Of a stretch of DNA of 46,766 nucleotides, positions 8,789 through 40,919 are shown piece after piece (within the stretch, counting starts at the first letter, position 1; each line of letters begins with the position of its first letter). Source of the stretch: Magnetococcales bacterium (GTDB lineage Bacteria > Pseudomonadota > Magnetococcia > Magnetococcales > DC0425bin3); the NCBI GenBank assembly GCA_015228935.1, contig JADGCO010000025.1, positions 1 to 46,766 on the forward strand. Reading direction: 5' to 3'. Below the pieces are notes generated by a model, which did not search any database, was not told the origin of the DNA, and saw only the letters and a list, made by a program, of their open reading frames with translations. The position numbers were made by a program, and so were the translations under genes.

Positions 8789-8880
8789 TGCCTGGTAAAC
8801 AGCCTGGTTGGTGACTCGGAGATGCATTTGTGTTTTGGCACGAAATTATTTCAAGATCCTGTTTGTCGTGGAATGAACGA

Positions 8881-17066: not shown

Positions 17067-18101
17067 ATGTTACGCCATGCAGTGGGGGTTTGTTTGGGTA
17101 TCGGGTTGTTTCTGAGTGTTGCGACGGCTGTCGCTGGTGAAGATACCAGAGGCGACGACGGCAAGACTGGGAATGACAAGAAAGTACGACAGGATGCCGT
17201 GATGCGGGGAGATGCCGAATGCACTTTCTGTCACGATGAAGAGGATTCCACATCTTTATTGGCCATTGGCAAGACGAAGCACGGCACCCTGGCGGACAGC
17301 CGAACGCCGACCTGTACGAGTTGCCATGGTGCCAGTCGGGAACATTTAAAGAAGGAATCCGGGCAGGATAAGCGCCCCAAACCTGACATCACCTATGGGC
17401 GCCGCTCACCCAAAATTCGACCCGATGCCCGCATTGACGAAAATTTTGGCAATTTCAAGACCACCGATACCCCGGCGGCCACCATCAACAAGACCTGTAT
17501 GACCTGTCATCAGGGTGACAAGCTCCTGTTCTGGTCAAGCAGTGCCCATGTCAAGCAGGAAGTGGCCTGCACCAATTGCCATGATATTCACACCGATCAT
17601 GATCGGGTGTTGGACAAGCGCAGTCAGCCCAGCGTCTGTTTTGGTTGCCACAAGACCCAGCGGGCCATGTTCAACAGGCCTTCGCATCATCCTGTTCCGG
17701 AAGGAAAAATGTCCTGTTCCAACTGCCACAATCCCCATGGTTCGACAGGGCATAAATCCCTGCGCTGGGACAGCATCAATGAGACCTGCTACCAGTGTCA
17801 CATGGAAAAACGGGGTCCTTTCCTGCACATGCATCCACCCGTGGCGGAAAATTGCCTCATCTGCCACAACCCGCATGGCACCGTCGTGGCCGACCTGCTC
17901 AACTACCGTCCCCCGTATTTGTGCCAGAATTGTCACAGCAGCACCACCCATCGAGGTCAGGTTCCGGGTTTGCCGGGTGTCCGGACCACAAACATGTCAC
18001 AACTTGGGACGGTGGCACGGGGTTGTGTGAAATGCCATGTCAATATTCATGGCAGTAACAGCACCGAAAATGCAACAAGAACCGGACGTTTCCAACGCTG
18101 A
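17067..18101 (+). CDS. Periplasmic decaheme c-type cytochrome (DmsE/MtrA type)
   Basis: 344 residues with a signal peptide (LGIGLFLSVATAVAG). Ten CxxCH motifs can be counted: CTFCH, CTSCH, CMTCH, CTNCH, CFGCH, CSNCH, CYQCH, CLICH, CQNCH and CVKCH. The spacing and the repeated CxxCHNPHG sequences are typical of the DmsE/MtrA/PioA decaheme family. These proteins sit inside an outer-membrane barrel and carry electrons across the outer membrane. ATG 17067 follows GGGAGGA at 17051-17057; a GTG one codon earlier is also in frame. The barrel gene begins 26 bases after the stop. Whether electrons flow outward (reduction of iron or other acceptors) or inward (iron oxidation) cannot be told from sequence. 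Confidence 0.95.
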   Translation: MLRHAVGVCLGIGLFLSVATAVAGEDTRGDDGKTGNDKKVRQDAVMRGDAECTFCHDEEDSTSLLAIGKTKHGTLADSRTPTCTSCHGASREHLKKESGQDKRPKPDITYGRRSPKIRPDARIDENFGNFKTTDTPAATINKTCMTCHQGDKLLFWSSSAHVKQEVACTNCHDIHTDHDRVLDKRSQPSVCFGCHKTQRAMFNRPSHHPVPEGKMSCSNCHNPHGSTGHKSLRWDSINETCYQCHMEKRGPFLHMHPPVAENCLICHNPHGTVVADLLNYRPPYLCQNCHSSTTHRGQVPGLPGVRTTNMSQLGTVARGCVKCHVNIHGSNSTENATRTGRFQR

Positions 18102-18126
18102 TGAAACATCAGGGAGATTAAGTGTC

Positions 18127-20301
18127 ATGCGCATGAACGGAAATGCACGCTTCATTTGGACGACCGGGGTTGCTGTTTTGTTGCTGGGGTCTGGGACAGC
18201 CTGGTCCGGGGAGGAAAACAAGGCCGATCCGGGTGGCCCGTTCGGAATGTGTCCGACAGCGGTTCCCTATACGACCCCGGAAAGCTTCCTCACGCTTGGG
18301 GTCGGTTATCTGGATGGAAATCGCAGAAAATTCAGTACTTTCGATGGAAAAAGTTCGACCACGGGCATGTTTCTTCTGGACGCTGGATATCTCAGCCGGG
18401 ATGAAGCGACGGGCACCTGGAGTGTCATCGAAGGCCGTAATCTGGGCCTGACTGGCAATCGTGATGTCAAGCTTTCTTTTGAAAGACAGGGTATATGGGG
18501 AGTTCGGGTCGATTACATCGAAATCCCGCGTCTGGCACCTTACGATGTCAATTCCAAGACCGAGGGGTTGGGTACCTCCCAGCAAATCATTCCCAAGACC
18601 GCCACTTCAGATGATGGATCACCCCGGCAGATCAGGACGGATCGCGACCGTCTGGTCGTCAATACGTTTCGTACCTGGAACAAAAACATCAAGTTCAATC
18701 TCAATTTCAGAAACGAGACCAAGGAAGGTACCCGTCAGTGGGGGCGGGGTGGTTTCAACGAGTTTGCCCTGGAGCCGATTGATTGGACCATGCGCCAGTT
18801 GGAACCGACGGTGAGCTATACCGGCAAGCGTGGTCAATTGTTGGGAGGTTATAACGGGAGCTGGTTTACGAACGAAAACAATACCCTGGTGGATTTCATC
18901 CTCAAGGGGGACAACCCTGCCTTGTTGGCCAGCCACAGCTATATCACCCAGCCCATGGACAATGAAGCCCACCAGGTGTTTCTCAGTGGCGGGTATCATT
19001 TGCCGATGGATTCGCATGCCACCTTTAAAATCTCCCATGGTCGGGCAATGCAAAATGAACATTTGCCCACCAATGATATTGCCGGCCTCTCTCTTGCCTA
19101 TGCCCCTTCGAAGCTGCGAGGTCGGGTCGATACGACCATGATTCAATTGGGATTGACCACGCAACCCCTGGCCGATCTCAACATTGTGACCAAATTGCGC
19201 TATCATGATGACGATGACCAGACACCGGCATGGTTGGTGGTGAATACACCCACGACCCAGGTTCACGCCACACCCCTCTCGATCAGAACCACATCCGGCT
19301 TGTTGGAAGGAACCTATCGGTTGCCCTATCAGATCAGCCTGACCGGGGGCATTGAACTGAAGGATCAAAAACGGCAAATACCGTTTGGCAATGATGCGAA
19401 CAAAGATGGCCTGGATGATGAGCGGTTCATCCCCTGGCGTACAGATATTGATGAAACGACCTATCGTTTGCAGGTGCAAAGACACATGTCGGAAACCATC
19501 AACGGGGCGTTGGGGTATGAACATACGGACCGGAACGGGTCGCAATATTTGAATTCCACAAAAATCATGGGCAATGATTTTGGCAAGATCGCGCCTTCCT
19601 TCATTGCCGACCGGGAGCGGGACAAGGTGCGCCTGGCCCTGGATTGGCGGCCCGTTGAACGGCTCGGGTTCCAGTTGGTTGTGGAAGATATTGTCGATCA
19701 GTATGGACTGAATCAGATCCCTTACGGGCAGAAAAAGGCGCACAGCCAGCTTTATTCGGTTGACATGGATTATGCCCCCACAGATCGCTGGCTGTTGACC
19801 GGTTGGTACTCTTACGACACCAACAAGACCTGGCAGGATGCCGGTCGCTGGAGTTCCACGGGTGTCCATGAGGCAGACAGAAGTTCGATACTCAAGGACA
19901 TGGGCAGTTCCGTTGGCTTGGGCGTGCGCAATCAGTGGCATGATGGAGTCAAACTGGGTGCCGATTTTCAGTGGACCCGGGACAAATCCAAGTATGAAGA
20001 TACCATAACGGTGGATCCAAAAAGTGTCCTTCCGGCCTATCCGGCTGGCGTGACCCCTTTGCCAGATATCGTCACCCCGACAACACGCTTGAACACCTTC
20101 ATCGAATACAAGGGCATGGGTCCAGGTACGCTCCGTTTCGACTATCTCCATGAACGCTGGCATACCAATGACTGGACCTGGAAATTCAGCGACGGCTCTC
20201 CCTACGTTTATGGCACCACGACCGATGGAACGCTGATTTCCACCATGGATGGCCAGACATCCAACTTTTTTGGGCTTCGTTATACGACCCGTTTCAAGTG
20301 A
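18127..20301 (+). CDS. MtrB/PioB-family outer-membrane beta-barrel protein
   Basis: 724 residues. A signal peptide ends near GSGTAWSG|EENK, followed by a long series of alternating amphipathic strands and polar loops ending in aromatic FFGLRYTTRFK, with a terminal Phe-Lys rather than a bare Phe. The family assignment rests on features such as LTLGVGYLDGNRRKF, repeated strand pairs (VKLSFERQGIWGVRVDY) and the gene order directly after a decaheme cytochrome. MtrB/PioB barrels sheathe the decaheme wire. The N-terminal CxxC present in some Shewanella homologues is not seen; a single Cys is in GMCPTAV. The frame is open back to 18037 but overlaps the decaheme gene; ATG 18127 gives the signal peptide. 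The stop overlaps the next gene by four bases. Confidence 0.9.
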   Translation: MRMNGNARFIWTTGVAVLLLGSGTAWSGEENKADPGGPFGMCPTAVPYTTPESFLTLGVGYLDGNRRKFSTFDGKSSTTGMFLLDAGYLSRDEATGTWSVIEGRNLGLTGNRDVKLSFERQGIWGVRVDYIEIPRLAPYDVNSKTEGLGTSQQIIPKTATSDDGSPRQIRTDRDRLVVNTFRTWNKNIKFNLNFRNETKEGTRQWGRGGFNEFALEPIDWTMRQLEPTVSYTGKRGQLLGGYNGSWFTNENNTLVDFILKGDNPALLASHSYITQPMDNEAHQVFLSGGYHLPMDSHATFKISHGRAMQNEHLPTNDIAGLSLAYAPSKLRGRVDTTMIQLGLTTQPLADLNIVTKLRYHDDDDQTPAWLVVNTPTTQVHATPLSIRTTSGLLEGTYRLPYQISLTGGIELKDQKRQIPFGNDANKDGLDDERFIPWRTDIDETTYRLQVQRHMSETINGALGYEHTDRNGSQYLNSTKIMGNDFGKIAPSFIADRERDKVRLALDWRPVERLGFQLVVEDIVDQYGLNQIPYGQKKAHSQLYSVDMDYAPTDRWLLTGWYSYDTNKTWQDAGRWSSTGVHEADRSSILKDMGSSVGLGVRNQWHDGVKLGADFQWTRDKSKYEDTITVDPKSVLPAYPAGVTPLPDIVTPTTRLNTFIEYKGMGPGTLRFDYLHERWHTNDWTWKFSDGSPYVYGTTTDGTLISTMDGQTSNFFGLRYTTRFK

Positions 20302-22286
20302 TCGGCATGTTGGTATCGCTCATCCGAGGTGTCACCCTGTTTTGTTTGTTTGTGGGTGGCAGCATGTCACCAGTTTTGGCCGAGGGGGGAGCAGAAGATG
20401 CCTTGTGCAATACGGCGTGTCTAAAATGTCATGATGGGAGCAAAAAATATGAAATCCTGGATGCTTCACCCAATGCTGGCGAAACCGGCAAGCGTTTCCT
20501 GACGGCAATTACGCCGGAATTGTATGGGCGGGGGGTCCATGCGCGTCTGTTGTGCAAGGATTGTCACGATAAAATCCGCAATCTGAATCCTCCGCACCAG
20601 AGTGGTGCAGCGGAAAAGATCGACTGTGCGGCTTGTCATGTACGTTTGGCCAAGGCGATGCAGGAAGCCGAGACGGTGGTGGCATCTTCCCGCATGGAAA
20701 CGGTCATTCGTCATACCATCAACTACCGACGTTCGTTCCATGCCCGTCCCAATAAAGACAACCCGGATTTTCCCAATGCAGTTTGCCATGAATGTCATGA
20801 TACCCATTTTTTCAACGTGCCGGTCGAGAAGCATGGCCCGGACTATGACAAATGGCGGCTGACGATTCCAGAATTGTGCGGAAAGTGTCACGAAGAGGCT
20901 TTAGAGGATTACGCGGCTTCGTCTCATGGTGTTGGGATCCTGGAAAAATCAAATTCAAAGTCGGCCAACTGTTCTGATTGTCACACGACATATTCGACTA
21001 CCGGGGCACATTTGGCCGTTTTCAAGCTGATGAGTTCAGAGACGTGCGGCGCGTGTCATCCAAAAAGCCTGGATACGTATCGTCAATTTTATCATGGCCA
21101 GGTGACACGCCTGGGTTTTCATCATACGGCCAAGTGTTATGATTGCCACGAAAGCCATAAAGTATTGCCTGCCAAGGATCCCAAATCCACGGTTCATCCC
21201 GACAAGCGCCTGCGGACCTGCCAGAAATGTCATGATGGTCAACATCGTCCGCTGGCTACAGCCGGTTTTGCCTCGTTTTCGCCCCACGCCAACGAGAACG
21301 ATTATGATCACTATCCGCAGCTTTGGTACGTGTCCCGTTTCATGCGAGGGTTGATGTGGAGTGTTCTCTCCTTCTTCACGCTTCACTCTGTCCTTTGGTA
21401 TTACCGGGAATGGCGGGAGCGGCAACAGTCGCCTGTCGTTTTGCCTTTGAATGTTTCCCTTCCTGGTGTGGCAACCAATCCGCATGTGCAGCGCTTTTCG
21501 CTGTTCTGGCGTGTTCTGCACTTATTCTTTGTCTTGGCGGTGATGGTTTTGTTGTTGACCGGTACGACATTTTTGAACGCGCATCTGGCCTGGGCACCGC
21601 CACTGGCGCATCTGTTGGGTGGTGCGGAGCGTATGGGGTTGCTCCATCGGGCCGCAGCTCTTTGTCTGGTCGGTATTTTTCTCTTCCATCTTGTGTTTGT
21701 CCTGCAAAGTCTGTTGCGCAAGCGCAACTTTGCCTGGTTTGGCCCGGACTCGCTGCTGCCCAATAAAAAGGACTTTCTGGACTGCCGCGACATGTTCAAA
21801 TGGTTCTTTGGCCGGGGACCCAGGCCCGGATTTGATCGCTGGACCTATTTTGAAAAATTTGACTACTGGGCAGTTTTCTGGGGAATGACGATATTTGTCG
21901 GCAGTGGTCTGGTGTTGGCGTTTCCCCATGTGGCCGGACGGTATCTGGATGGCTGGGTATTCAATGTGGCCATTCTGGTTCATGGGCGAGAGGCGTTGCT
22001 GGCTACGGTATTTTTATTCACAATCCACTTTTTCAACAATCACTTCCGTCCTGCCAAATTTCCGCCACCGGATATTTCGATGTTTACCGGAAATCTCTCC
22101 CTGGCAGAGTTGCGGCGCGATCATCCGGCACAATTCGAGCGTTTGCAGAGTCGTGGTGAGTTACAGAGTCTACTGGTCCGTGGCCCGTCAAGGGGTATGC
22201 TCCTGGGGGCCAGGCTTCTGGGAGCATTGTTGCTGGTTGGCGGCCTGACGTTGCTGTTTTTGATGGGGAGCCGGTATTTTTGGTGA
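20298..22286 (+). CDS. Nine-heme cytochrome c fused to a cytochrome b-like membrane domain
   Basis: 662 residues. A signal or anchor segment (LIRGVTLFCLFVGGSMSPVLA) precedes a periplasmic part with nine CxxCH motifs: CLKCH, CKDCH, CAACH, CHECH, CGKCH, CSDCH, CGACH, CYDCH and CQKCH. From about residue 355 there are about five transmembrane helices with paired His residues (for example LHRAAALCLVGIFLFHLVF and VHGREALL...FTIHFFNNHF), as in di-heme cytochrome b of the b561/formate dehydrogenase gamma kind. This is the expected form of a quinol-linked inner-membrane entry or exit point for electrons. The start is GTG 20298, which overlaps the barrel gene stop (GTGA), implying translational coupling; ATG 20307 is an alternative. 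With the three upstream genes it completes an inner-to-outer membrane path. Confidence 0.9.
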   Translation: MIGMLVSLIRGVTLFCLFVGGSMSPVLAEGGAEDALCNTACLKCHDGSKKYEILDASPNAGETGKRFLTAITPELYGRGVHARLLCKDCHDKIRNLNPPHQSGAAEKIDCAACHVRLAKAMQEAETVVASSRMETVIRHTINYRRSFHARPNKDNPDFPNAVCHECHDTHFFNVPVEKHGPDYDKWRLTIPELCGKCHEEALEDYAASSHGVGILEKSNSKSANCSDCHTTYSTTGAHLAVFKLMSSETCGACHPKSLDTYRQFYHGQVTRLGFHHTAKCYDCHESHKVLPAKDPKSTVHPDKRLRTCQKCHDGQHRPLATAGFASFSPHANENDYDHYPQLWYVSRFMRGLMWSVLSFFTLHSVLWYYREWRERQQSPVVLPLNVSLPGVATNPHVQRFSLFWRVLHLFFVLAVMVLLLTGTTFLNAHLAWAPPLAHLLGGAERMGLLHRAAALCLVGIFLFHLVFVLQSLLRKRNFAWFGPDSLLPNKKDFLDCRDMFKWFFGRGPRPGFDRWTYFEKFDYWAVFWGMTIFVGSGLVLAFPHVAGRYLDGWVFNVAILVHGREALLATVFLFTIHFFNNHFRPAKFPPPDISMFTGNLSLAELRRDHPAQFERLQSRGELQSLLVRGPSRGMLLGARLLGALLLVGGLTLLFLMGSRYFW

Positions 22287-28765: not shown

Positions 28766-30037
28766 TTGGTGACGGGTCGGCCCAAGGTTCATGAAGGACA
28801 TCACAACACACTGCTGCTCGTGGTGGCGCTGGTGATGATCCTCATGACCCTGATATTGGCGACACAGCCCTTGTTTCTGCGGCAAATTCTCTCTCTGGGA
28901 CGGGAAAATGCCGGTTTTGTCAATGCCAACATTCAAGTCGCCACGGAAGTGATCGAAATGGTCCTCGTGGGCTACCTGGGCTATCTGTCGGACCGGTTTG
29001 GCCGGGTTCCCATCCTGTTTTACGGCTTTTTGCTGTCCGGGGCCATGGCCCTGCTGATCCCGTTTTGCGGCAGTATCGCCCTGTTCCTGGGTGTGGAGGC
29101 CCTGGCCGTCTACTATCTGGCCCGGGTCCTGATGTCCCTGGGAACGACGGCCGTCTGGCCCCAGCTCGCCACCATGACGGGAGACTACAGCACACCCGAC
29201 AATCGGACCCGGGTGCTGACCAGGGCCGGCTTCATGACCGCCTTTGGCGCAACCCTGGTCTACGCCATTCTGATGCAACTGACCCAATATGTCGGCGTCC
29301 AGACCATCATGCTGTTTGCGGCCCTGGTGGCCCTGGCCGGGGCCTGGCTGGTCCACCATTTTCTCATCGAAACCGCACCCCGCCTCCAGGACCCCCGCTT
29401 TCCCTTTCAGCGCCTGTTGACATTACTCAAGCAAAGCAAAGAGCTGCGTCTCAGTTTCCTGGCCGCCTTCTCCTCCCGCAACGACATGGTGATCATCGGC
29501 CTGTTTCTCATGACGTGGTTCATCTATTTCAGTGACATGCTGCCGGATGTCAGCAGCAACCAGGCCGCCGGGCGGGCCGGATTCGTCATTGGCTTCATCG
29601 GTCTCGTGGTCCTGGTCTCCATCCCCGTCTGGGGTCACATTACCGAACGCTACGGCCCGATCCGCTCCGTCCTGATGGGACTGCTCCTGTCGGGAGTGGG
29701 CTTTTTGACCTTCGGCCTGATCATCAACCCCTTGAGCTGGTGGTCCCTGGTCCCGGCCCTGCTGGTCGGTCTGGGTCAGGCCGGCTGCATCCTGGCCCCA
29801 CAAATCCTGGTGATGGATCATGCCGAAGAAGAGATCAGCGGCTCGGTGATGGGGGCCTTCAATACCGCCGGCTGTATCGGCATCGTTTTTTTTCTGCAGG
29901 TCGGCGGCATTCTGTTCGACTGGGTCGGCCCTACCGCCCCCTTCCTGTTCACCGGATTGTCCAACCTGCTCATCACTTTATACGGAGCGGCAAATTTTTT
30001 GCATACCGGAATCGCCACCTCCGACCAACTGGAGTGA
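28766..30037 (+). CDS. mamH: MamH, magnetosome major-facilitator transporter
   Basis: 423 residues with about twelve transmembrane helices. The MFS motif A-like loop reads LGYLSDRFGRVP between helices 2 and 3. The placement directly before mamI and mamE is the conserved start of the mamAB operon. MamH is thought to help import iron or related ions into magnetosomes or the cell and affects crystal size and number; the exact substrate is not settled. The start is TTG 28766 or GTG 28769, both just after a purine-rich GGGAGAAGGGG. No strong promoter was identified in the 225 bases between the transposase-like gene and this start. Codon use is GC-richer than in the preceding unknown genes. The 5' end of the operon appears to be here. 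Confidence 0.93.
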   Translation: MVTGRPKVHEGHHNTLLLVVALVMILMTLILATQPLFLRQILSLGRENAGFVNANIQVATEVIEMVLVGYLGYLSDRFGRVPILFYGFLLSGAMALLIPFCGSIALFLGVEALAVYYLARVLMSLGTTAVWPQLATMTGDYSTPDNRTRVLTRAGFMTAFGATLVYAILMQLTQYVGVQTIMLFAALVALAGAWLVHHFLIETAPRLQDPRFPFQRLLTLLKQSKELRLSFLAAFSSRNDMVIIGLFLMTWFIYFSDMLPDVSSNQAAGRAGFVIGFIGLVVLVSIPVWGHITERYGPIRSVLMGLLLSGVGFLTFGLIINPLSWWSLVPALLVGLGQAGCILAPQILVMDHAEEEISGSVMGAFNTAGCIGIVFFLQVGGILFDWVGPTAPFLFTGLSNLLITLYGAANFLHTGIATSDQLE

Positions 30038-30252
30038 ACCGTCCCGGTCGCAGCCGCATCCGCCAGGCCGCCGCCGCAGGAGATGTCGGGGGTGCGCAAA
30101 ACTCCTGGAGATTTCCAACACATGTGGATAGACTTCCAGGAGATGGTGTGTTTCGGGTTGTCTGGCCAGTTCCATGAACAAAGCCTGGAATCCGGCGGCA
30201 GCACGACTCGGGTGAATTGTTGGCGCTTATTTTCAATGGGAAAAATCGGATC

Positions 30253-30507
30253 ATGCCGAGCATCATAATCGGATTGGTGGCCATCTCGCTTGGCCTGTGG
30301 GGGTTGTCTGCCTGGTGGTGGTCCATGGTCGAATTTTTGCGGGGCGTGGTGCCGCTCTTCCTGGTCATGTTCGGCTTCATTGCCCTGGGAGCCGGTGTGA
30401 CCCGCATGCGGGAGGTCAGTTCACATCCTGCCCGGGAGAAGGATGCAGATACGGAAGAGCTGCGTGACCCCCCGTCATCATCCAAGCCGATGAGTGGACT
30501 GGAATGA
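30253..30507 (+). CDS. mamI: MamI, magnetosome membrane biogenesis protein
   Basis: 84 residues. ATG 30253 gives the family N-terminus MPSIIIGLVAISLGLWG, followed by the characteristic SAWWWSMVEFLRGVVPLFLV and a second helix FGFIALGAGV, then a hydrophilic tail about 25 residues long that is a little longer than in Magnetospirillum. The frame is open 12 codons upstream, but that extension is not family-like. MamI is a two-helix protein of the magnetosome membrane that is essential for membrane invagination in Magnetospirillum. The gene is 215 bases after mamH and its stop overlaps the mamE start by four bases (ATGA), indicating coupled translation. Confidence 0.9.
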   Translation: MPSIIIGLVAISLGLWGLSAWWWSMVEFLRGVVPLFLVMFGFIALGAGVTRMREVSSHPAREKDADTEELRDPPSSSKPMSGLE

Positions 30508-32726
30508 CACCAGAGCAGGATCCGAATTGCGGACGTGGCTTCCTGAAGTATCTTTTTCTCGTGGGAGGAGCGTCCATCATTCTTTTGGCCGCAACCTTCT
30601 GGTGGGGCCGGTTCACCCCGGGCGATGCCAGAGCGGCCCGTCAAAAGTTTGCCGCTGAACGGAATGCCGCACTCCCGGGACAGGGTGGCCGCCTCGCCCC
30701 CGGTGGACAGACCGGGCCGGTCGCCGTGCCCGTTGCCGCCACGGTCCCCCTGGACACACCAGGCACCCAACTTGACCCGTTGCCGAATGGTTCCACCGGA
30801 ACCCCGACCCGCTTTGCAGCCGTGTCGCGACTCCTGCTGCCCAGTGTGGTCAATGTCAGTGCCACCAATGTCCGGGGAGCAGAGATCAATCCCGCACCCG
30901 CCAATGGCACCCGGGACACCCCTCCGCCCGGTCCCGGCGGCACCAGCCCCGCTCCCACCCCTCCCCAATCGCCGGCCCTGCAATATGCCGATCCTTTCAG
31001 CGGCGTCACGACCGAAAGTATCGGCTCCGGCGTCGTGGTCACGGCGGATGGTTATATTCTCTCCAATTATCATGTCGTTGAAAAATCGAAACATGTCTTC
31101 GTCACCGTGTTCAACGCCCAGGGCAGCAGCCAGGTCGTGCCCGCCGAAATCGTCACCCTGGATGCCCGCCGTGACCTCTCCCTGCTCAAGGTCGATATCG
31201 AGACGCCCCTGCAACCGGCGGCGTTCGGTGACAGTTCGCGCATCAATGTGGGTGATCCGGTCATTGCCATCGGCAGCCCGTTTGGTCTCGACCAGACCGT
31301 GAGCCAGGGCATCATCTCCGGCAAGCGCAAGGCGATCAACATCGGGGGCGTCATGCATCGGGGACTGATCCAGACCGATGCCGCCATCAATCGCGGCAAC
31401 TCGGGCGGCCCCCTGGTCGATGGCACCGGGTATGTCATCGGCATCAATACGGCCATTTACACCACGACCAACGCCTTTGCCGGTGTCGGCTTTGCCGTCC
31501 CCTCGAACACGGCCCGGGAGTTTCTGGAAGAGACGCTGCAACTGCCAACCATCACCCCCAATCTTGGCAGATTCATCGGCCTGGGTGGTGGCACACATGT
31601 GGCCGCCCGACCACCCCCCCCCATCCTGGCCAATGCCGCCCCCCCCCATGAGGATCGGGGGCCTTGCGCCAATTGCCATCAAATATTGCCAGCACCTCCT
31701 GGTGCCCTGCCGGCGGCCTTCAACCAGCCTGGCCCCCCGGGTGCGGATGGCGGCTGGCACCGCAACCGGGCCGATGCCTGGTACATGTTCGATCCGAGTG
31801 GGGCCGTTGGCCTGAATCCCGCCATGGTCAATTCCGCCGGTGCGCAAAATGGCATGAAAATGGCATCACCCCCTGCCAGTGCCGTAGCTCCCGGTACAGG
31901 CACGTCAGCACCCCCAGAGGATGAAGCACTTGCCGGTCAGCAGATCAATACCCTGTTCGGCATGACCGTCACCCTCCTGGATGCCCAGAAGGCCGGCCAA
32001 CAAAACATTTCGCTGCCCAAGGGAGCCATGATCGAGACCGTATCGCCCGGCTCGCTGGCTGCGCAGGCCGGCCTGCAACCGGGGGATGTCATTCACAAGG
32101 TGGAAGGTCGGTGGGTGGAAAATCTGAGTGTGCTGGCAAAAAGATTACTGAATTCCAATCCGGGTGATGAGGTGCGCCTCGCGGTCGCCAATGGCGGACA
32201 ACGACGCCCCGTCTACATGCGGATTCCACCGCGTGACACCATGATCAATCTGGGCAACCAGGCCCAGGCCCAGGCCCAGGCCCAGGCTGTGGCCCTGACC
32301 GGTTTGACGGCACCCGTCGGACCCGGGCAATGGGGCCAGGCAACCCAGCCCATGCAGGCCCAACCCATGCTGGATATAACCCCGGTGCTGACGCCAGGCA
32401 ATGGTCCCGCAGCACCGGGAAACAAACCAGCCCGGACCCCGGCCAAGCCCCCCGTTCCGGCGGAATTCGAATGGATGGGCATGGAAATGGCCCCCACCAA
32501 ACCGGGGGTACAAGGGGCACGCGGCGGGTCCATCAGCGAAGTGACGGCTGGTTCGCCGGCAGCACGTGCGGGACTGCACGTGGGCGATGTCATCCTCGCC
32601 ATCAACGGAATCCCTGTTCCCGACGGTGCCGCACTGGATCAGGCCATCAAAGCGGCAGCCGGACGACAGTGGACCCTGCTTGAAGTGGAACGAAATGGAA
32701 CAAGGATGTTTTCCAAGATTCAATAA
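30504..32726 (+). CDS. mamE: MamE, HtrA-like magnetosome protease with one c-type heme motif
   Basis: 740 residues. One N-terminal membrane anchor (about 14-34) is followed by a Pro/Gly-rich linker, then a trypsin-like domain with an intact-looking triad: His190 (SNYHVVE), Asp224 (ARRDLSLLK) and Ser300 (NRGNSGGPL). A magnetochrome motif follows, PPHEDRGPCANCHQI, with the heme-binding CxxCH at residues 388-392. Two PDZ domains lie at about 483-575 and 655-735, separated by a Gln/Ala repeat (QAQAQAQAQA) and a Pro-rich linker. MamE promotes protein localisation to magnetosomes and, by proteolysis, maturation of crystals. Characterised Magnetospirillum MamE has two CxxCH motifs; I find only one here. 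The total length is like the known proteins. It overlaps mamI by four bases. Confidence 0.95.
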   Translation: MTPEQDPNCGRGFLKYLFLVGGASIILLAATFWWGRFTPGDARAARQKFAAERNAALPGQGGRLAPGGQTGPVAVPVAATVPLDTPGTQLDPLPNGSTGTPTRFAAVSRLLLPSVVNVSATNVRGAEINPAPANGTRDTPPPGPGGTSPAPTPPQSPALQYADPFSGVTTESIGSGVVVTADGYILSNYHVVEKSKHVFVTVFNAQGSSQVVPAEIVTLDARRDLSLLKVDIETPLQPAAFGDSSRINVGDPVIAIGSPFGLDQTVSQGIISGKRKAINIGGVMHRGLIQTDAAINRGNSGGPLVDGTGYVIGINTAIYTTTNAFAGVGFAVPSNTAREFLEETLQLPTITPNLGRFIGLGGGTHVAARPPPPILANAAPPHEDRGPCANCHQILPAPPGALPAAFNQPGPPGADGGWHRNRADAWYMFDPSGAVGLNPAMVNSAGAQNGMKMASPPASAVAPGTGTSAPPEDEALAGQQINTLFGMTVTLLDAQKAGQQNISLPKGAMIETVSPGSLAAQAGLQPGDVIHKVEGRWVENLSVLAKRLLNSNPGDEVRLAVANGGQRRPVYMRIPPRDTMINLGNQAQAQAQAQAVALTGLTAPVGPGQWGQATQPMQAQPMLDITPVLTPGNGPAAPGNKPARTPAKPPVPAEFEWMGMEMAPTKPGVQGARGGSISEVTAGSPAARAGLHVGDVILAINGIPVPDGAALDQAIKAAAGRQWTLLEVERNGTRMFSKIQ

Positions 32727-32928: not shown

Positions 32929-35900
32929 ATGTCGGAAAATGTCACCAGAATGGATAAAGAGCGCTCCCGTTCAGCCCGTTTGCGTGGCATCGCGGCCTTT
33001 CGTTCCGCAGCCAAGGAGTTGGCCGAGTTGACCCGTCAACGCCGGGAAGGAATGCAGAAAGCCACCGAGGTCGCGGTTGCAGCGGCCTTGCATGTTTCGC
33101 CTGTTCCGTCTATCGTCGCATCCGTTTCAACCCCCGAATTGGCCATGCCGGCGGTAACATCCTTTGCTGACCCAGGCCAGGTGCCACCCCCAACCAGGGA
33201 GCATGATGGCCGGCCAGCAGTCAAGGCAACTTCCATGGTACCTGCGGTCATGATGACATCCACAATACCGGAAGGAAGCACAGGAATGGCATCCGAGAGG
33301 CGGGACGCTCCTCAACCGGAACGAGGCTCAATTCCGGCGTCCGCCAGGCAAGAAACCTTCCAACCGGAAATAAGCCCAACCCCGATGTCTGCCAGGCAAG
33401 AGACCCCCCAACCGGAACAAGGCTCGGTCCCGACGTCCGCCAGACAAGAGACACCCCAACCGGAAATAAGCCCAACCCCGACGTCCGCCAGACAAGAGGC
33501 CCCACAACCGGAAATAAGCCCAGCCCCGACGTCCGCCAGACAAGAGGCCCCACAACCGGAAATAAGCCCAGCCCCGACGTCCGCCAGACAAGAGGCCCCA
33601 CAACCGGAAATAAGCCCAACCCCGACGTCCGCCAGACAAGAGGCCCCACAACCGGAAATAAGCCCAGCCCCGACGTCCGCCAGACAAGAGGCCCCACAAC
33701 CGGAAATAAGCCCAGCCCCGACGTCCGCCAGACAAGAGACACCCCAACCGGAGCAAGGCTCAACCCCGGTGTTCACCAGGCAAGAAATTCCTCAACCGGA
33801 AAAAAGCCCGGGAGCGGTGTCTGCAAGGCAAGGTACTTCTCAGAAGGTGGCGGAAATTGATCTGCCCCTTGCGGCCGGTCCTGTTTCCCTGGGAGAGGTG
33901 GCCGATATTGTTCTGCCATTGCCCGGGGAAAGGGTTTCTGCACCTTCCCAACCCGACTTGAAACAACCCGTCAAGACATTGACCGAAAAACCGCCCCGCA
34001 AGCCAACAGCGGACCCCTCCATCATCGAAGAGGCAACGCACCCTGTCCTGTTGGCCCTGATGGGAAAAAAAACCGGGCGCAACCGGGCAGGCAAGACTTC
34101 GACCCCGGTCACCCCCCCCCCGGTCACAGCTCCGAACGACACGGTCGCGACGACCCCTGCCACACTGGCTGAACAGGCCCATCAGGTCGCCAAAAGGGCA
34201 GGCGCGGACAAGGAACGCAACCTGCCCGATCCAGCCCGACTGCGACACCAGGCGGAAACCTGGACGACGCACCCCGAAACGGCTGGCTCTTCATGGGCAA
34301 AACCGGAGTCGGTCGCCGTCCCCGTCCGGAAAGGGCGCCGTGCCTCCCCTCCTGCCCAAACAGTACCCTGGTCTTCCTCGACATCAGGCATTGTGCTGCT
34401 GAGTGAATCGCAGCCACCTGCGTCCAGTGACCGGGGCAAAGAGGCATCGGCAGCAACGCCGCACCCCTCGGACACGACCGATCTCATTTCGAGACGCTCC
34501 ACCCGGCAAATGATCGGCCTGGATGTCTGGAAAGGCAGCGCCTCGGGCGTGGCCGTCCTCTCCATGCCGGACTCGGCTCTCGCACCAGCCAACACCCAGG
34601 CAGCAAAAAACGGTTCCACCCCCTGGGTGGCAGCGGTCGGCGCTGCGGATGCCCAGGTTGGCAAAACCGGCCTGGCTTCCCGGTCGGCGTCAGCCGACAC
34701 GACGCCTGCCCAGGTTGACAAACCGGGTCCGATCCCCTGGTCGGCAACGCCCTGCCCAATGCCTGCCCAGGTTGACAGGCCAGGCCCGGCTCCCCGGCCA
34801 GCGATGGATGCCGGGATTGACAAACCGGGTCCGGCATCCAGGAAAGCGACAGCGGCCAGGATTGACAAACCGGATCCGGCATCCAGGCCAGCAACGGAGG
34901 CCAGGATTGACAAACCGGGTCCGACTCCCTGGACAGCAGCAGGTGCCGAAGTGGACAAGCCAGGTCCGGTTCTCTGGTCGGCGACAGCCAGCATGACCGA
35001 TATCCAGGCTGAAAATCCCGGTTTGGCTCCCTGGTTGGTGTATGCCGGACAGGTGCATGCCGCCCGCCGCAAAAGACGTGTGCCGGCCAGCACGATCGCG
35101 GCCATGGTCGGCAGCCGGATTCCCGCCCCGGCAGATGCCAAGCCGCCTCTGGATAAGACCCAGGTTGGGGTGAACGGTGCCATGCCACCGGAAAAGACCC
35201 AGGTTCGGGAAACCGGTGCCATGCCCGCCACACTACGGGCGACAACACCCTGGTCAGTCATCGCCGCCTCTCCGACAGGGAGTACATCCCCTGCGACAGC
35301 CGGTGTCCCGCAACCTGCACCTGCAAACGATCTTGCGCTCCCGCGCCAGCAAAAAAAAGGGCTGCCAGCCGCTCTCGCCCGGACAACCCCGGAACAGGCA
35401 CCTGTGACGCCGGTATCCGTGACGTCGGCACCCGAGTTGAACGCCGTGCGCACTGCGTCGGGACCCTGGTGGCCCGGCAAACCGGGACAGAGTGCCGCTC
35501 CTTCTTCCGACCAGCAGGTCCCGTTTCAGGCTGCTGCACAAGCAGAACCTGAAGAACAGAACAAGGAGACGGAACCAGCCGTTGAGACAATGACCCTCAA
35601 CAAGGCAATACCCGTCACCGGCAAAGGCAGGCCTGACTTTGTCGATCTGGTCAATCATCTGCAATGGCACGTTCCCCAACTCTCCCCCGTCGCGGCAGAC
35701 CCTGTGCCCCCCCCATCCGCCGAGGCGGATGCAGGGTTGTCGGCCTGGGGTGCGCTCGTGGCCCAGTTCGGAACCCGACGTGGTGAAGTCAAGTACGGCT
35801 TCTGCCCCCTGCCGGTCGTTGCGGTCGGCGGCGCTTCGGACCCGCTCCCGGAAGCGACAGCCCAGGAAGAGGAACCGGTGCCCCCTGCGGGCATTCCCTG

Positions 35901-38058
35901 GCGGAAATCCCGCCTGGAACCTGCCGGACTGGTCAGCCAGGCGACCACGGATGCGGTACAACCGACAATCCGGGAATTGGTCGATACCCGGGATGGCCAC
36001 CCCGCCGGCCCGAAGAAAGACTCACCGGCAAAAGAGACCCAACAAAACGCCCTGCCGGAAGAGACCAAAACAGGCACCCCGGCAGAAAATGTGCAGAAGG
36101 ATTCCACGCCGGAAGCAGCGCAGAAGGATTCCACGCCGGAAGCGGCCAGGAATCATGACACGGCCCATGAAACCGGGAAAAACGTCCCGGCACAAGAGGC
36201 CATGCAGGATTCCACACCAAAGGCGTCCCACAATGAGTCTGGATCATCCGCACAGCCGGAATCCCCCGAGACCCCGTTGACGGCCTCCTATCATAAACGG
36301 AGTACGACGCCCCGGATTCCCAACTCGGTCCGGGAACTGGGCGGCTTTGTCGGCCACCACCCCCTTGGCCAATCGATCTGGGGCCTGGTTTCTAAAAAAA
36401 CTTTCTGGAAACATCGTTTTGCAGAGACAGCAGTGCAGGAGATCAAACGCCGGGAAAACTCCTTCAAGGGACCGAAGGTTCCCTTTTTCACCCATGGCTG
36501 GCCCACCATCTACTCGACCGATGTTCTCTCCGGGCCGTTCGGCGTTCTCTGGAACGAACACGCCGCGCCAGGAGTCTCCGCCATGACCATTGGACTGCCC
36601 GCCACCGGGCAGTTCATGCCGGCAAAAAAAACGGAACATCATCCCCTTGCCATGCCGAAGTTTCACGTGGAAGGCATTCTGGATATTCTGGGACAACCCG
36701 TATTCCAATCCCAATCCTGGACCTCGGGGCGGCGTACTTCTCCAGGTCGGTTCATCGCCTATCCACCCCCCGTTCCCGGCAGAAGAACCAAGGCAAGAAG
36801 TGACTGGTGGAAAACAATCAGCCAGGGAGATTCACACAGGAGTTTTTTTCAAAACGCCCACTCCCCGGCACCCGCGTCAACCACCCCTGAAATGGCCACT
36901 GCGGACAACACGACTGAAAAGGAAAAAATCGCCGCTTCCGACCGTGCGTGGCAGCAATTGGCAGGACCAGCGGAAATTCAGAATCTGAAAGAGTTTTTCG
37001 CCGGCTTGCGCACCACCACACAAAAGCCGTTCGAGAATGATTTTTTGTCAGCGACAAAGCTTGATTTGAAAATGGAATCGACGCATAGTACGCCCTCAGG
37101 ATACGGGAAGGATGTCGTTGACGATAGAAATCTGCCTTCTTCCCCGGTCCCTGTGATTCAATTTATCGAGGACAGACTTGTGCCGGTAATAACTTTGGAA
37201 CCAGAGAGTGGTGCCCAGGTGGAGCGTACCCCGGAAAAAATCGGATCTGCGCCCGACAGCAGCACAAGAACGGTCGAAAAATCCCGACCGCAGGCAGCCG
37301 TGGATCCTGTGCCCATGCCGACAGATCCGGTCGCCCCGGTCGTCGTGATTCCGGTCGCTTCGGTACCGGTCGCCCCTGCCGCATCGGTCGCTGCGGCTCC
37401 GGTCGCTCCTGCCGCACAAGTCGTCATGGTTCCGGTCGCTCCTGTCGCACCGGACACCGTGGTTTCTGCCGTACCGGTTGTCATGGCTCCGGTCACCTCT
37501 GCCGCACCAATCGCCATAGTCCCCGCCACCATGACATCCCCGGCTCCGGTGCCCAGTATGGACGAAATCGTGCATGACAAAGCCGGGGCACAAGCCAAGG
37601 CAGAACCTTTTGCCACGGTCAAACAGGTACCTATCGGTGATGACGTGAACAACATGTCAGAAATACAGGCTGGAACAACCCGCCCCGTCGAACCAGTATC
37701 CATCAGGCAGGAATCAGCCAACGCCCTGGATCTGGATGAAATGGAAACCGTACAAGCCCCTGCCGTTAGAACAACACCGCAATCCAACAGGCAGGAATCA
37801 ACCAGCAGTCTGGATCTGGATGAAATGGGAACCGTACAAGCCCCTGCCGCCAAGGCGGTACCGCCCAAAGCTGCCCGGCAGCAAACCGCCCGGAAGCCGT
37901 CTGATGCCATCCCGGTCGAAGACCTGGCCACCGGGTTTGCCAACCTCATGGGAGATGGCGTGGAAGGTGTCGTCAAAGGGGCGTCGTGGCTGGTGGGAAA
38001 AGTGCAGAAAGTCAGGTCTGGTGAGAAAGTCAGGTCTGGTGTGGGAAAAACTCATTGA
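32929..38058 (+). CDS. Giant repeat-rich protein in the mamJ position
   Basis: 1709 residues between mamE and mamK, where Magnetospirillum has mamJ (about 430-470 residues, also repeat-rich, tethering vesicles to MamK). It has no signal peptide, no membrane helix and almost no Cys. A basic N-terminus (about 1-55, ARLRGIAAFRSAAKELAEL) is followed by an exact 16-residue repeat array (about 123-304) and a Pro/Ala/Thr-rich part with an [IV]DKPGPxxW motif recurring about every 16-20 residues (about 590-705). A less repetitive stretch at about 1117-1310, rich in Trp, Phe and Gly, may fold (VRELGGFVGHHPLGQSIWGL). A Val-Ala-Pro run follows near 1465-1530, then two copies of LDLDEM(E/G)TVQAPA, and a C-terminal helix DGVEGVVKGASWLVGKVQKV. 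ATG 32929 lacks a good ribosome-binding site; ATG 32950 is an alternative. A chain-assembly role is inference from position. Confidence 0.85.
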   Translation: MSENVTRMDKERSRSARLRGIAAFRSAAKELAELTRQRREGMQKATEVAVAAALHVSPVPSIVASVSTPELAMPAVTSFADPGQVPPPTREHDGRPAVKATSMVPAVMMTSTIPEGSTGMASERRDAPQPERGSIPASARQETFQPEISPTPMSARQETPQPEQGSVPTSARQETPQPEISPTPTSARQEAPQPEISPAPTSARQEAPQPEISPAPTSARQEAPQPEISPTPTSARQEAPQPEISPAPTSARQEAPQPEISPAPTSARQETPQPEQGSTPVFTRQEIPQPEKSPGAVSARQGTSQKVAEIDLPLAAGPVSLGEVADIVLPLPGERVSAPSQPDLKQPVKTLTEKPPRKPTADPSIIEEATHPVLLALMGKKTGRNRAGKTSTPVTPPPVTAPNDTVATTPATLAEQAHQVAKRAGADKERNLPDPARLRHQAETWTTHPETAGSSWAKPESVAVPVRKGRRASPPAQTVPWSSSTSGIVLLSESQPPASSDRGKEASAATPHPSDTTDLISRRSTRQMIGLDVWKGSASGVAVLSMPDSALAPANTQAAKNGSTPWVAAVGAADAQVGKTGLASRSASADTTPAQVDKPGPIPWSATPCPMPAQVDRPGPAPRPAMDAGIDKPGPASRKATAARIDKPDPASRPATEARIDKPGPTPWTAAGAEVDKPGPVLWSATASMTDIQAENPGLAPWLVYAGQVHAARRKRRVPASTIAAMVGSRIPAPADAKPPLDKTQVGVNGAMPPEKTQVRETGAMPATLRATTPWSVIAASPTGSTSPATAGVPQPAPANDLALPRQQKKGLPAALARTTPEQAPVTPVSVTSAPELNAVRTASGPWWPGKPGQSAAPSSDQQVPFQAAAQAEPEEQNKETEPAVETMTLNKAIPVTGKGRPDFVDLVNHLQWHVPQLSPVAADPVPPPSAEADAGLSAWGALVAQFGTRRGEVKYGFCPLPVVAVGGASDPLPEATAQEEEPVPPAGIPWRKSRLEPAGLVSQATTDAVQPTIRELVDTRDGHPAGPKKDSPAKETQQNALPEETKTGTPAENVQKDSTPEAAQKDSTPEAARNHDTAHETGKNVPAQEAMQDSTPKASHNESGSSAQPESPETPLTASYHKRSTTPRIPNSVRELGGFVGHHPLGQSIWGLVSKKTFWKHRFAETAVQEIKRRENSFKGPKVPFFTHGWPTIYSTDVLSGPFGVLWNEHAAPGVSAMTIGLPATGQFMPAKKTEHHPLAMPKFHVEGILDILGQPVFQSQSWTSGRRTSPGRFIAYPPPVPGRRTKARSDWWKTISQGDSHRSFFQNAHSPAPASTTPEMATADNTTEKEKIAASDRAWQQLAGPAEIQNLKEFFAGLRTTTQKPFENDFLSATKLDLKMESTHSTPSGYGKDVVDDRNLPSSPVPVIQFIEDRLVPVITLEPESGAQVERTPEKIGSAPDSSTRTVEKSRPQAAVDPVPMPTDPVAPVVVIPVASVPVAPAASVAAAPVAPAAQVVMVPVAPVAPDTVVSAVPVVMAPVTSAAPIAIVPATMTSPAPVPSMDEIVHDKAGAQAKAEPFATVKQVPIGDDVNNMSEIQAGTTRPVEPVSIRQESANALDLDEMETVQAPAVRTTPQSNRQESTSSLDLDEMGTVQAPAAKAVPPKAARQQTARKPSDAIPVEDLATGFANLMGDGVEGVVKGASWLVGKVQKVRSGEKVRSGVGKTH
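33295..33840 (+). repeat. 48-base coding tandem repeat (16-residue units) in the giant protein
   Basis: About 11 units encode variants of SARQEAPQPEISPAPT. The five central units are almost identical at DNA level. The flanking units diverge (RQETFQPEIS, RQETPQPEQGS, RQEIPQPEKSP). The gradient from identical centre to diverged edges is typical of growth by unequal crossing-over or slippage, and copy number probably varies between strains. Each unit has two acidic and one or two basic residues and four Pro. Confidence 0.97.
34690..35060 (+). repeat. Degenerate repeats with an [IV]DKPGPxxW motif
   Basis: Within the giant protein, at least seven spaced copies of a motif like AQVDKPGPIPWSA, AGIDKPGPASRKA, ARIDKPGPTPW and AEVDKPGPVLW recur every 16-20 residues, more diverged than the 48-base array. 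A later partner, IQAENPGLAPW, closes the series. The Trp at the end of many copies could give short binding motifs in an otherwise disordered chain. Confidence 0.8.
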
Positions 38059-38191: not shown

Positions 38192-39232
38192 ATGCAAGCC
38201 CAGAAAAACAGTGACAAACAGCTTTTTGTAGGCATTGACCTGGGAACGTCCAGAACGTCCGTCATGTCCCGCCGTGGAGTCAAGACCATGGTGCGCTCGG
38301 TCGTGGGCTATCCCAAAGACATCATCGGGGTCAAGATTCTGAACAGTACGGTCGTGATCGGTCAGGAAGCCCTGGACAATCACCCCTACCTCAGCCTGCA
38401 CTTTCCGCTGGCCGACGGGGTGCTGAAAGAAACCTCGGAAAAAGATGAACAGGCCGCACGCGAACTGCTGCGCCACGTCGTCAACTGCGCCGAACCCCAG
38501 GCCGACGAACGGGTCTTCGGCGTCCTCGGCGTGCCGGCCCGGGCCTCCCTGTTCAACAAGAGCCAGTTGTTGAAAATCACCGAAGAGACCATGGCCATGG
38601 CCATGGTGGTCTCCGAACCGTTCATGGTCGCCTACGGCCTGGACAAGCTCAACAACTCCCTGATCATCGACATCGGGGCCGGCACCACCGACATCTGCGC
38701 CATGAAAGGCACCGTCCCCAGCCACAGCGACCAAGTGACCCTGCTCAAGGGCGGCAATTATGTGGACGAAGTCTTCTCCCACGCGGTGGCCGAATCCTAC
38801 CCCGATGTGCAGATGACCCGCTTCCTGGCCCAGAAAATCAAGGACAAATACGGCTTCGTCGGCGAACCGACCCAGGAAGTCGTCGTCTCCCTGCGCAGCA
38901 ACGGCAAACCCCTGCTGCACGATGTGACCCGCGAGTTGCGCTTCGCCTGCGAAACCATCATTCCGGATATCCTGGAAAGCCTGGAAACCCTGGTGGCCGG
39001 CTTCGACCCGGAAGATCAGGCCGAAGCCCTGAACAACATCATCCTGGCCGGCGGCGGCTGCAACATGATCGGCCTCGATGTCGCCCTGGCCGAAGGGTTG
39101 AAGGATTATGGCAAGGTCCACGTCACCCGGGTGGCCGACCCGGATTTCGCCGGTGCCGCCGGTGCCCTGAAACTGGCCACCGAACTGCCCACCGAATACT
39201 GGAATCAGGTGGGTGACGTGATCGGCGGTTGA
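38192..39232 (+). CDS. mamK: MamK, magnetosome actin-like protein
   Basis: 346 residues of the actin/MreB/MamK fold. The phosphate 1 loop is VGIDLGTSRTSV, phosphate 2 is SLIIDIGAGTTDICAM, and the adenosine motif is NNIILAGGGCNMIGL; the MamK-like GVLGVPARAS is also present. MamK forms cytoplasmic filaments that position and align magnetosomes into chains, and its length is the family norm. ATG 38192 has a strong GAGGAGAGG close upstream. A 133-base gap separates it from the giant protein gene, and mamF follows after 37 bases. The neighbouring giant protein is the obvious candidate connector to the filament (inference). Confidence 0.97.
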   Translation: MQAQKNSDKQLFVGIDLGTSRTSVMSRRGVKTMVRSVVGYPKDIIGVKILNSTVVIGQEALDNHPYLSLHFPLADGVLKETSEKDEQAARELLRHVVNCAEPQADERVFGVLGVPARASLFNKSQLLKITEETMAMAMVVSEPFMVAYGLDKLNNSLIIDIGAGTTDICAMKGTVPSHSDQVTLLKGGNYVDEVFSHAVAESYPDVQMTRFLAQKIKDKYGFVGEPTQEVVVSLRSNGKPLLHDVTRELRFACETIIPDILESLETLVAGFDPEDQAEALNNIILAGGGCNMIGLDVALAEGLKDYGKVHVTRVADPDFAGAAGALKLATELPTEYWNQVGDVIGG

Positions 39233-39269: not shown

Positions 39270-39593
39270 ATGTCCATGCAACATGCACCACGGCCTGAAG
39301 GCATTGTTTCGCATATCATGGCAGGCATGAGTTACCTGGGAATCCTGGCCCTGATACCGGTGGTCGTGGGCAGAAGAGATCCATTCGTCATCTTCCATGC
39401 CCGCCAGGGTATCGTGCTGTGGATCCTGGAAGTGCTGGCCGTCTACAGTCTGGCCCTGCCCGTCATCGGCAAGCTGATGTTCCAGTTTGTCAGCGTGCTG
39501 TGCTTTGTCATCTCGGTCTTTGGCCTGTTGATGGTTTTTTTGGGAAAAACGTGGCGGATACCAGGTATTGGAGCGGTTGCTGATCACCTGTAG
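39270..39593 (+). CDS. mamF: MamF/MmsF-type magnetosome membrane protein
   Basis: 107 residues with three hydrophobic segments. The Tic20/DUF4870-like signature is visible as IMAGMSYLGIL...IPVVVGRRDPFVIFHARQGIVLWILEVL. MamF and MmsF are abundant magnetosome membrane proteins that influence crystal size and shape; this one fits either name. ATG 39270 or 39276 can start it. In Magnetospirillum mamF lies in the separate mamGFDC operon and mmsF in mms6, so finding it between mamK and mamL is a lineage feature. Confidence 0.88.
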   Translation: MSMQHAPRPEGIVSHIMAGMSYLGILALIPVVVGRRDPFVIFHARQGIVLWILEVLAVYSLALPVIGKLMFQFVSVLCFVISVFGLLMVFLGKTWRIPGIGAVADHL

Positions 39594-39869: not shown

Positions 39870-40919
39870 ATGCCGACTGAAATGGTGATACTGAAACTTG
39901 AAGGGACCGTACAGGCTTCCCAGGTGGCCGGACTGGCAGGACAGACCTTCACCGTCGGGAAGGTGACCTCGACCGGAACCGGAATCCATAAATGGTTGTT
40001 CCTCAACCCCGTGCCAGGCAGCGACAGCACGGCCGTCGCCCTGAAAATCGAGGGCACCCAGCAAATCGCCAAAATTTCCGCCTTGAGTGGCAAGACGGTC
40101 GTGGTCGGCAAGTCGCCAGTCGTGATCGGTGGCCTGCACAATCTGCTGGTCCTCCATCCAGCCGGAGCCGCCGCCACCCCCGCCGTGGCCGCCACCATGC
40201 CTGCCGCCAAAGTCGCCGCCAATTCCCAGATGGTCATGCTGAAACTCGATGGCACGGCCCAGGCCGGACAAATCCCCATACTCACCGGCAAGACCTTCAC
40301 CGTGGTGGATCCCCCCATCATGGGTGCCCAGGCCCAAAAATGGCTGTTCTTGAAACCAACTGCGGCCTCCGGTCTGGCCGACCAGGGACTGATCGCCCTC
40401 AAGGTACAGCATGGGGGAACCACAACCATGCCGCATCTCGTCGGCAAAACCGTCCTGCTGGGTAAATCGCCCATGATCGCCGGCGGTGCGGGCAAGTGGA
40501 TCATGCTCTCCCCGGTCGCCACGGGAGGAACCGCATCCGGTGTCACCCCCCTGACCGTGGCCCATACCCAACCCGCTCTCGGCCCCGCCCAATCCACCCC
40601 CGTCATGCAAACCGTGGCCGCCACCAAAACCACGACCACCCTGTCACCCGTGGATGTGGCCGCCAATTCGACCGCTGCCACCTCGGCCACTGCCGTCGCC
40701 GCCAAAAGTGCCGGTGCCACGGCCATTGCCGTGGGCAGCACCAGCCTGGGCCTGAGCCTGGCCGCCTGGGGAGCCGCCCTCCTGATCACCGCCGCCGTGG
40801 GCGTGGGGGTCTACAATTACATGTCCAGAAAAAAAGCCCTTGCACAACAGCAGGATCAGGATATGGAAGAGGCCCTTGCAGAAGATGCCACGGCTGAACT
40901 GAGCCTGGAAGGTGCTTGA
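39870..40919 (+). CDS. mamD: MamD/Mms7-like magnetosome protein with four internal repeats
   Basis: 349 residues. The first 216 are four copies of a module of about 43 residues (6-48, 56-98, 121-163 and 174-216) with consensus (V/A)xLKLEGTxQ...ILxGKTxxVGKxP...KWLxLxP. A Thr/Ala-rich linker (220-285) follows. One membrane helix (about 291-316) is in a Gly/Leu/Ala-rich GSTSLGLSLAAWGAALL context like Mms6/MamD/MamG. An RKK stop-transfer sequence leads to an acidic tail QQDQDMEEALAEDATAELSLE. MamD acts on crystal growth and is bound tightly to magnetite; the acidic tail could meet iron, as proposed for Mms6. The gene symbol is by similarity of layout. It lies between mamL and mamM, not in a separate operon. 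Confidence 0.8.
   Translation: MPTEMVILKLEGTVQASQVAGLAGQTFTVGKVTSTGTGIHKWLFLNPVPGSDSTAVALKIEGTQQIAKISALSGKTVVVGKSPVVIGGLHNLLVLHPAGAAATPAVAATMPAAKVAANSQMVMLKLDGTAQAGQIPILTGKTFTVVDPPIMGAQAQKWLFLKPTAASGLADQGLIALKVQHGGTTTMPHLVGKTVLLGKSPMIAGGAGKWIMLSPVATGGTASGVTPLTVAHTQPALGPAQSTPVMQTVAATKTTTTLSPVDVAANSTAATSATAVAAKSAGATAIAVGSTSLGLSLAAWGAALLITAAVGVGVYNYMSRKKALAQQQDQDMEEALAEDATAELSLEGA

Follow-up and report, generated by a model that had tools for sequence, protein, structure and literature searches.

The mamAB gene cluster of a Magnetococcales bacterium encodes, between mamE and mamK, a protein of 1709 residues whose final ~40 residues (IPVEDLATGFANLMGDGVEGVVKG) match the glycine-rich anchor at the C-terminus of Magnetospirillum MamJ. 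The giant gene is probably an overgrown MamJ relative rather than an unrelated invention. Surveys have reported mamJ only in Magnetospirillum (PMC9840458) and as absent from Etaproteobacteria (PMC6783814), and the protein that links magnetosomes to MamK in the cocci has been listed as unknown (PMC9840458, PMC6783814, PMC10653835). A 37-column MamJ anchor next to mamK in nearly every Magnetococcales genome gives the whole order a concrete candidate for this linker.

Locus and architecture of the giant protein

The window, i.e. the whole stretch of DNA that was analyzed (46,766 nucleotides), belongs to a 4.7-Mb genome assembled in 197 contigs. The giant ORF is uninterrupted from its ATG and is separated by 202 bp from the end of mamE and by 133 bp from mamK. 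Both flanking genes were confirmed with Pfam and NCBIfam, in agreement with the preliminary description of this DNA, which had placed a giant repeat protein in the mamJ position. The gene order is mamH-I-E-giant ORF-K-F, followed by mamD, mamM, mamO and mamP (Table 1). The product of the MamF-like gene shares 60-62% identity with that of the gene that follows mamK in members of the MC-1 group, annotated there as mamF (PMC3934378); its DUF4870 match is weak (E 0.054). The mamD gene (39870-40919, NCBIfam E 8e-77) lies within the mamAB cluster, flanked by the MamF-like gene and mamM.

Table 1. Coordinates of the genes around the giant ORF and of the segments within it (window positions).
Feature	Position	Strand	Evidence or remark
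mamH	28766-30037		
mamI	30217-30507		
mamE, upstream neighbour	30504..32726	+	NCBIfam MamE E 2.3e-116; MCR, trypsin and PDZ domains
Giant MamJ-like protein, 1709 aa, candidate magnetosome-MamK tether	32929..38058	+	Open frame; both ends conserved in-frame with congeners and MC-1
N-terminal basic amphipathic helix SRSARLRGIAAFRSAAKELAELTRQRREG, residues 13-45	32965..33063	+	Magnetococcales-specific head
16-residue tandem array, 10.4 copies, consensus SARQE[TA]PQPEISP[TA]PT	33313..33809	+	TRF score 637
Degenerate ~15-residue series, unit DKPGPxPW[ST]A, residues ~578-700	34660..35028	+	
Central conserved module, residues 1113-1330	36265..36918	+	Genus-wide; N-half detectable in MC-1
28-residue duplication (S.RQES...LDLDEM)	37698..37853	+	TRF
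C-terminal PVE anchor IPVEDLATGFANLMGDGVEGVVKGASWLVGKVQKV, residues 1661-1697	37909..38019	+	Common to MamJ; sole match in own genome
mamK, downstream neighbour	38192..39232	+	NCBIfam MamK E 1.5e-159
MamF-like (Tic20-type) membrane protein, predicted anchor insertase	39270..39593	+	Follows mamK directly

Much of the protein is built from repeats. The exact 16-residue array and the second, degenerate series of the preliminary description were both recovered, the former by TRF at residues ~129-293 with a period of 48 nt and 87% match; its count of 10.4 copies may be inexact, because the assembly is fragmented. Smaller arrays occupy residues 742-765, 1056-1078, 1475-1508, 1591-1641 and 1693-1704. 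The repeats had also been described as Pro/Gln-rich and mixed in charge. The protein as a whole is of mixed charge (pI 6.5), yet its 16-residue array has a net acidic character (pI 4.7). PW dipeptides are enriched ~2.4-fold across the family (82 observed vs 34.7 expected); since no defined motif emerged from them, no function is claimed for this enrichment.

The same-position proteins of two congeners measure 1404 aa and about 1150 aa, and one genome (G002) encodes a second paralogue of 1200 aa on another contig. In G002, a run of N breaks the orthologue that lies between mamE and mamK (L011:5719-6636 and 6218-9616), so that its apparent length may differ from its true length; a GIAAFR-type helix precedes the N gap at its N-terminus, in a different frame. 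The regions of the giant protein that align to congener proteins are residues 4-55, parts of ~306-535, 891-912 (one paralogue), 1084-1391 and 1652-1698. Within them, residues 1113-1330 show 37-38% identity to all three congener proteins (E 1e-32 to 3e-48), which shows that the central stretch singled out earlier is conserved; the MC-1 match is weak, and the module modeled alone by single-sequence AlphaFold2 has a pLDDT of 37, too low to be informative on its fold. MC-1 (G037, name inferred) aligns at residues 14-54, 1134-1209 and 1650-1700. The repeats of relatives are unrelated in sequence, being a 16-residue unit (PPPPLVESPIATTIAA, 4.4 copies) in G001 and the 7-residue PEAASHE (11.4 copies, 100% match) in MC-1. 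Because the ends align across relatives and the middle repeats do not, the ends are under selection and the middle behaves like a rapidly changing spacer. The long spacer considered in the preliminary description fits to this extent: relatives carry repeats too, in sequences of their own.

The RLRGIAAFR helix at the N-terminus is conserved in the window genus and the MC-1 group, with 39-64% identity to the congeners and to MC-1/G038/G039. Weaker matches, individually of low significance, occur at the N-termini of family members from other Magnetococcales families. A search of viral contigs with the N-terminus of the giant protein found no relative, and whole-protein searches of Pfam, NCBIfam and PDB returned no family similarity. 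A surface adhesin or secreted repeat protein that stands in the operon by chance would also be long, repetitive and Pro-rich. Such an origin is very improbable: residues 1-45 are charged and contain no hydrophobic signal segment, the first hydrophobic stretch beginning at residue 48; no adhesin, anchor or secretion domain was found in Pfam, NCBIfam or PDB, homology to an unrelated family such as an adhesin having been named in the preliminary description as a refutation; and both the position and the C-terminal motif are conserved with magnetosome genes.

A C-terminal anchor in common with MamJ

The C-terminus had been predicted to be helical, and the AlphaFold2 model indeed contains one helix, at residues 1664-1697, with moderate confidence (mean pLDDT 63.6). 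This helix carries a motif of the form [VI]P[VI]E.LG.G[VI]..LGD.VGGVV, hereafter the PVE motif, which recurs in the ORF upstream of mamK across Magnetococcales. The same motif ends the MamJ proteins of Paramagnetospirillum and Magnetospirillum (VPVEDLLGGIFGIAGSAVRSVLSLG...) and is present in mamK-upstream ORFs of other alphaproteobacteria, of gammaproteobacteria and of a Mariprofundus.

A profile was built from the C-termini of MamJ and its close allies (14 sequences), with no Magnetococcales sequence in it, and run against 3,927 ORFs of Magnetococcales loci. It returned 41 domain matches at E<0.1, 33 of them just upstream of mamK; the other eight are the G002 paralogue and seven small proteins downstream of extra mamK copies, with none elsewhere. 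The giant protein was recognized at residues 1661-1705 (E 5.7e-6), the best reversed decoy reaching E 1.1. When the profile was cut at the published C-terminal boundary (last 93 residues), the giant protein ranked third of 3,928 ORFs (E 2.6e-5), and all 14 matches with E<0.01 were family members (best reversed decoy again 1.1). A full-length MamJ profile likewise retrieved only family members at E<0.01, yet missed the giant protein, presumably because of its long unrelated middle. In the reciprocal direction, a profile of the window genus and the MC-1 group found the mamK-upstream ORF in alpha-, gamma- and zetaproteobacterial magnetosome clusters. Finally, hhalign aligned the Magnetococcales profile, with the window sequence as first row, to the MamJ profile over 37 columns with a probability of 95.5% (E 1.6e-8). 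A chance similarity between Gly-rich sequences was ruled out by the reversed-sequence decoys.

Recognition by MamJ-only, reciprocal and profile-profile comparisons indicates that at least the anchor module is common to MamJ, at the level expected of homology. As the common segment is short, the comparison supports homology of the anchor module and not of the proteins in full. The preliminary description had suggested an independent solution for linking vesicles to MamK filaments. The linker role remains plausible; the independence is not supported. A convergent, unrelated linker at the same locus, with a Gly/Val-rich helix that resembles MamJ merely in composition, would account for the lack of similarity beyond ~40 residues and for the differences in N-terminus, repeats and charge, and non-homologous chain proteins do exist in other phyla, e.g. 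the Mad proteins in RS-1 (PMC12748827). This reading is already disfavoured and is judged improbable, since the residue-specific PVE(D/S)L..G pattern is recovered in both search directions, decoys made by reversal, and hence identical in composition, never score, the anchor is nearly exclusive to genomes with mamK, and intermediate forms that carry it, some together with the N-terminal SPW motif of MamJ, occur in other alpha-, gamma- and zetaproteobacteria. Because the giant protein carries MamJ's anchor, it is better named a giant MamJ-like protein.

The position of the motif agrees with experimental work on MamJ. Counted back from the C-terminus, PVEDL begins at residue 72 in five MamJ proteins, which places it at 355-359 of the 426-aa MamJ, just ahead of the anchor helix 359-379 and overlapping its start. 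The C-terminus of M. gryphiswaldense MamJ (334-426) alone reaches magnetosomes, the Gly-rich helix 359-379 being the anchor, and deletions 335-358 and 378-426 abolish chain formation (PMC11628618). The anchor helix of the giant protein is less hydrophobic than that of MamJ (GRAVY 0.59 vs 1.41) and carries D/E/K; it may therefore be peripheral rather than integral.

Beyond the anchor, the two proteins share the mamE-mamK position, the C-terminal placement of the [VI]P[VI]E.L..G...G..V..V helix and an organization of conserved ends around a hypervariable, repeat-rich middle. In contrast to MamJ, the giant protein is ~4 times longer, has lineage-specific Pro/Gln-rich repeats instead of a long acidic domain, and is devoid of both the W..LLE.SPW motif and the conserved C-terminal Cys-rich tail. 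The NCBIfam MamJ model (NF040987, cut-off 100 bits) gave no match to it at E<=1, true MamJ proteins scoring 552-559 bits. Similarly, a W..LLE.SPW profile found alpha- and gammaproteobacterial members and neither the giant protein nor clear Magnetococcales members. Lacking a match to the model, the N-terminal motif and an acidic repeat domain of MamJ type, the protein is not classed as MamJ in the strict sense; in MamJ the central acidic repetitive domain is dispensable (PMC10653835).

Distribution of the anchor

Within Magnetococcales, an anchor motif profile (A3) matches 45 of 48 genomes, including all 27 of high quality, and finds a single match in the window genome (E 5.5e-16); E-values within the order are not independent, because A3 includes Magnetococcales sequences, and the independent tests are the MamJ-derived and reciprocal profiles above. 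Strong A3 matches number 73. Of these, 50 are on the same strand as mamK and <1 kb upstream of it, a placement found in 42 of the 46 genomes that have mamK; seven others lie <1 kb downstream of mamK. The 50 anchor-bearing ORFs upstream of mamK range from 186 to 1730 codons, the giant ORF with its upstream open frame being the longest. Absence or relocation of the gene in relatives had been named as a possible refutation. The family is present in essentially every Magnetococcales genome, and where mamE is directly followed by mamK the PVE gene is usually found beside another copy of mamK. The MC-1 gene keeps its place after mamE, at a distance of 8.6 kb ahead of mamK.

Proteins of 96-151 aa that consist of nearly the PVE anchor alone are encoded just downstream of extra Magnetococcales mamK copies (L045:4746-5078, L048:12183-12515, L056:4020-4346, L063:12343-12663, L051:2118-2408, L053:1768-2223, L058:2572-2931), and two small PVE proteins outscore every large member against the MamJ profile. 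Three genomes of one family encode adjacent pairs of large (578-649 aa) and small (125-169 aa) PVE proteins away from mamK (L213:6129-8326, L214:8035-10446, L215:8070-10547). Many Magnetococcales members (L045, L046, L063, L078 and others) have a second, strongly hydrophobic Gly-rich segment or hairpin after the PVE helix (e.g. GGVRGIVTGVTQIAGGSVDIVLGTLGTLGGVIV), which is absent from the window genus and the MC-1 group.

Through the anchor, maq1 and the MC-1/IT-1 hypothetical protein are likewise linked to MamJ. In UR-1, a 723-aa ORF (G019:C525) carries the motif VPVESLGTGIYNALGDMVGAVV. The maq1 gene of UR-1 has been published as specific to its family (Magnetaquicoccaceae; PMC6783814) or as not found in other magnetotactic bacteria, and a limited literature search found no paper tying maq1 to MamJ. 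Maq1 and the giant protein are alike in the PVE anchor and in locus (in MC-1 after mamE), and on present evidence they form one family. In the MC-1 group, the N-terminal GIAAFR helix of the giant protein is present as well, and its central module is weakly recognizable. Maq1 differs in its length of 723 aa and in having another Gly-rich hydrophobic hairpin, which follows the anchor.

A total of 398 Pseudomonadota genomes were searched. Among the ~350 outside Magnetococcales, three match the anchor motif, i.e. a Mariprofundus, an X2_MetaBAT genome and G156, and all three carry mamK; for the first two, mamK was assigned by way of L148 and L122, whose genomes match at identical coordinates. In G156 (L209:6609-14049), mamE is followed by the gene of a PVE protein of 140 aa that contains an (EA)n repeat, and then by mamK, and a second, 636-aa PVE protein is encoded in the cluster. 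A Nitrospinota MAG contig with mamH/I/E/K encodes two weak PVE proteins upstream of mamK (L129:7456-9729). Each Paramagnetospirillum genome has a second, shorter PVE protein, which is likely LimJ.

A candidate tether between magnetosomes and MamK

The sequence evidence makes it likely that the giant protein is a MamJ-like tether in which a disordered spacer of variable length joins an order-specific head to a conserved anchor. By analogy with MamJ, the PVE helix (~1661-1697) would insert into the magnetosome membrane, or lie against it, on the cytoplasmic side. Insertion of the MamJ anchor needs MamF-like Tic20 homologues (PMC11628618), and the MamF-like protein encoded just after mamK would probably hand the helix over to the membrane. 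A partnership between MamF-like insertases and PVE-anchored tethers is predicted across the phylum. The Pro/Ala/Gln-rich, repeat-built middle would form a disordered cytoplasmic spacer, and the N-terminal order-specific helix, the candidate MamK-facing end, and/or the central module may contact the MamK filament. On sequence, the RLRGIAAFR helix appears to take the place of the W..LLE.SPW motif of MamJ, which is missing at this N-terminus. The position of the gene and the comparison with MamJ suggest a linker function and MamK binding.

MamK of Magnetococcales DCbin4 substitutes well in M. gryphiswaldense (PMC10653835), which indicates that the MamK side is compatible across both lineages. Precedents exist for barely recognizable MamJ analogues encoded just upstream of mamK: both Mg-1g50 of Magnetovibrio blakemorei (289 aa; PMC10653835) and the MamJ-like protein of Rhodovastum G2-11 (563 aa; PMC9938234) replace MamJ function in M. 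gryphiswaldense. They are compared here by position and function. Several points count against a tether. MamK of MC-1 was a poor substitute in M. gryphiswaldense (PMC10653835); UR-1, whose maq1 bears the motif, reportedly has unchained magnetosomes (PMC6783814); the MC-1 gene lies far from mamK; and the NCBIfam MamJ model and W..LLE.SPW are unmatched.

Since small proteins downstream of extra mamK copies carry it, the PVE motif may mark magnetosome targeting and not tethering. The motif would then be only a membrane-targeting tag for MamF-like insertases and the giant protein no MamK tether; it could, for example, keep vesicles apart as a surface spacer or brush, serve as a crystal-maturation factor or form a scaffold for other Mam proteins. 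MamD and Mms5, which have Gly-rich C-terminal helices, are also inserted by MamF-like proteins (PMC11628618), some PVE proteins are encoded away from mamK, and a role independent of MamK has been proposed for Maq1 (PMC12791574). This alternative, including the roles listed, is nevertheless considered unlikely. More than two thirds of the strong matches lie directly upstream of mamK; MamD of the window genome differs from the giant protein in having no PVE motif, nor does the rest of that genome contain one; and MamJ, the sole member of the motif family with a known function in the literature consulted, is a tether.

The tether reading can be extended, tentatively and at less than even odds, to one ancient family across Pseudomonadota and perhaps Nitrospinota, in which an anchor tail is combined with a freely evolving disordered spacer and interchangeable MamK-facing heads, namely W..LLE.SPW in magnetospirilla and some gammaproteobacteria and the GIAAFR helix in Magnetococcales. 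Giant forms in cocci with a single mamK might then set vesicle-filament reach or particle spacing by their length.

Apart from the magnetosome genes, the window encodes at 17064-22283, ~6.5 kb ahead of the mam genes, a multihaem cytochrome, an MtrB/PioB-type outer-membrane porin and a multihaem/cytochrome-b561 fusion. This set suggests an outer-membrane electron conduit in a magnetic coccus.
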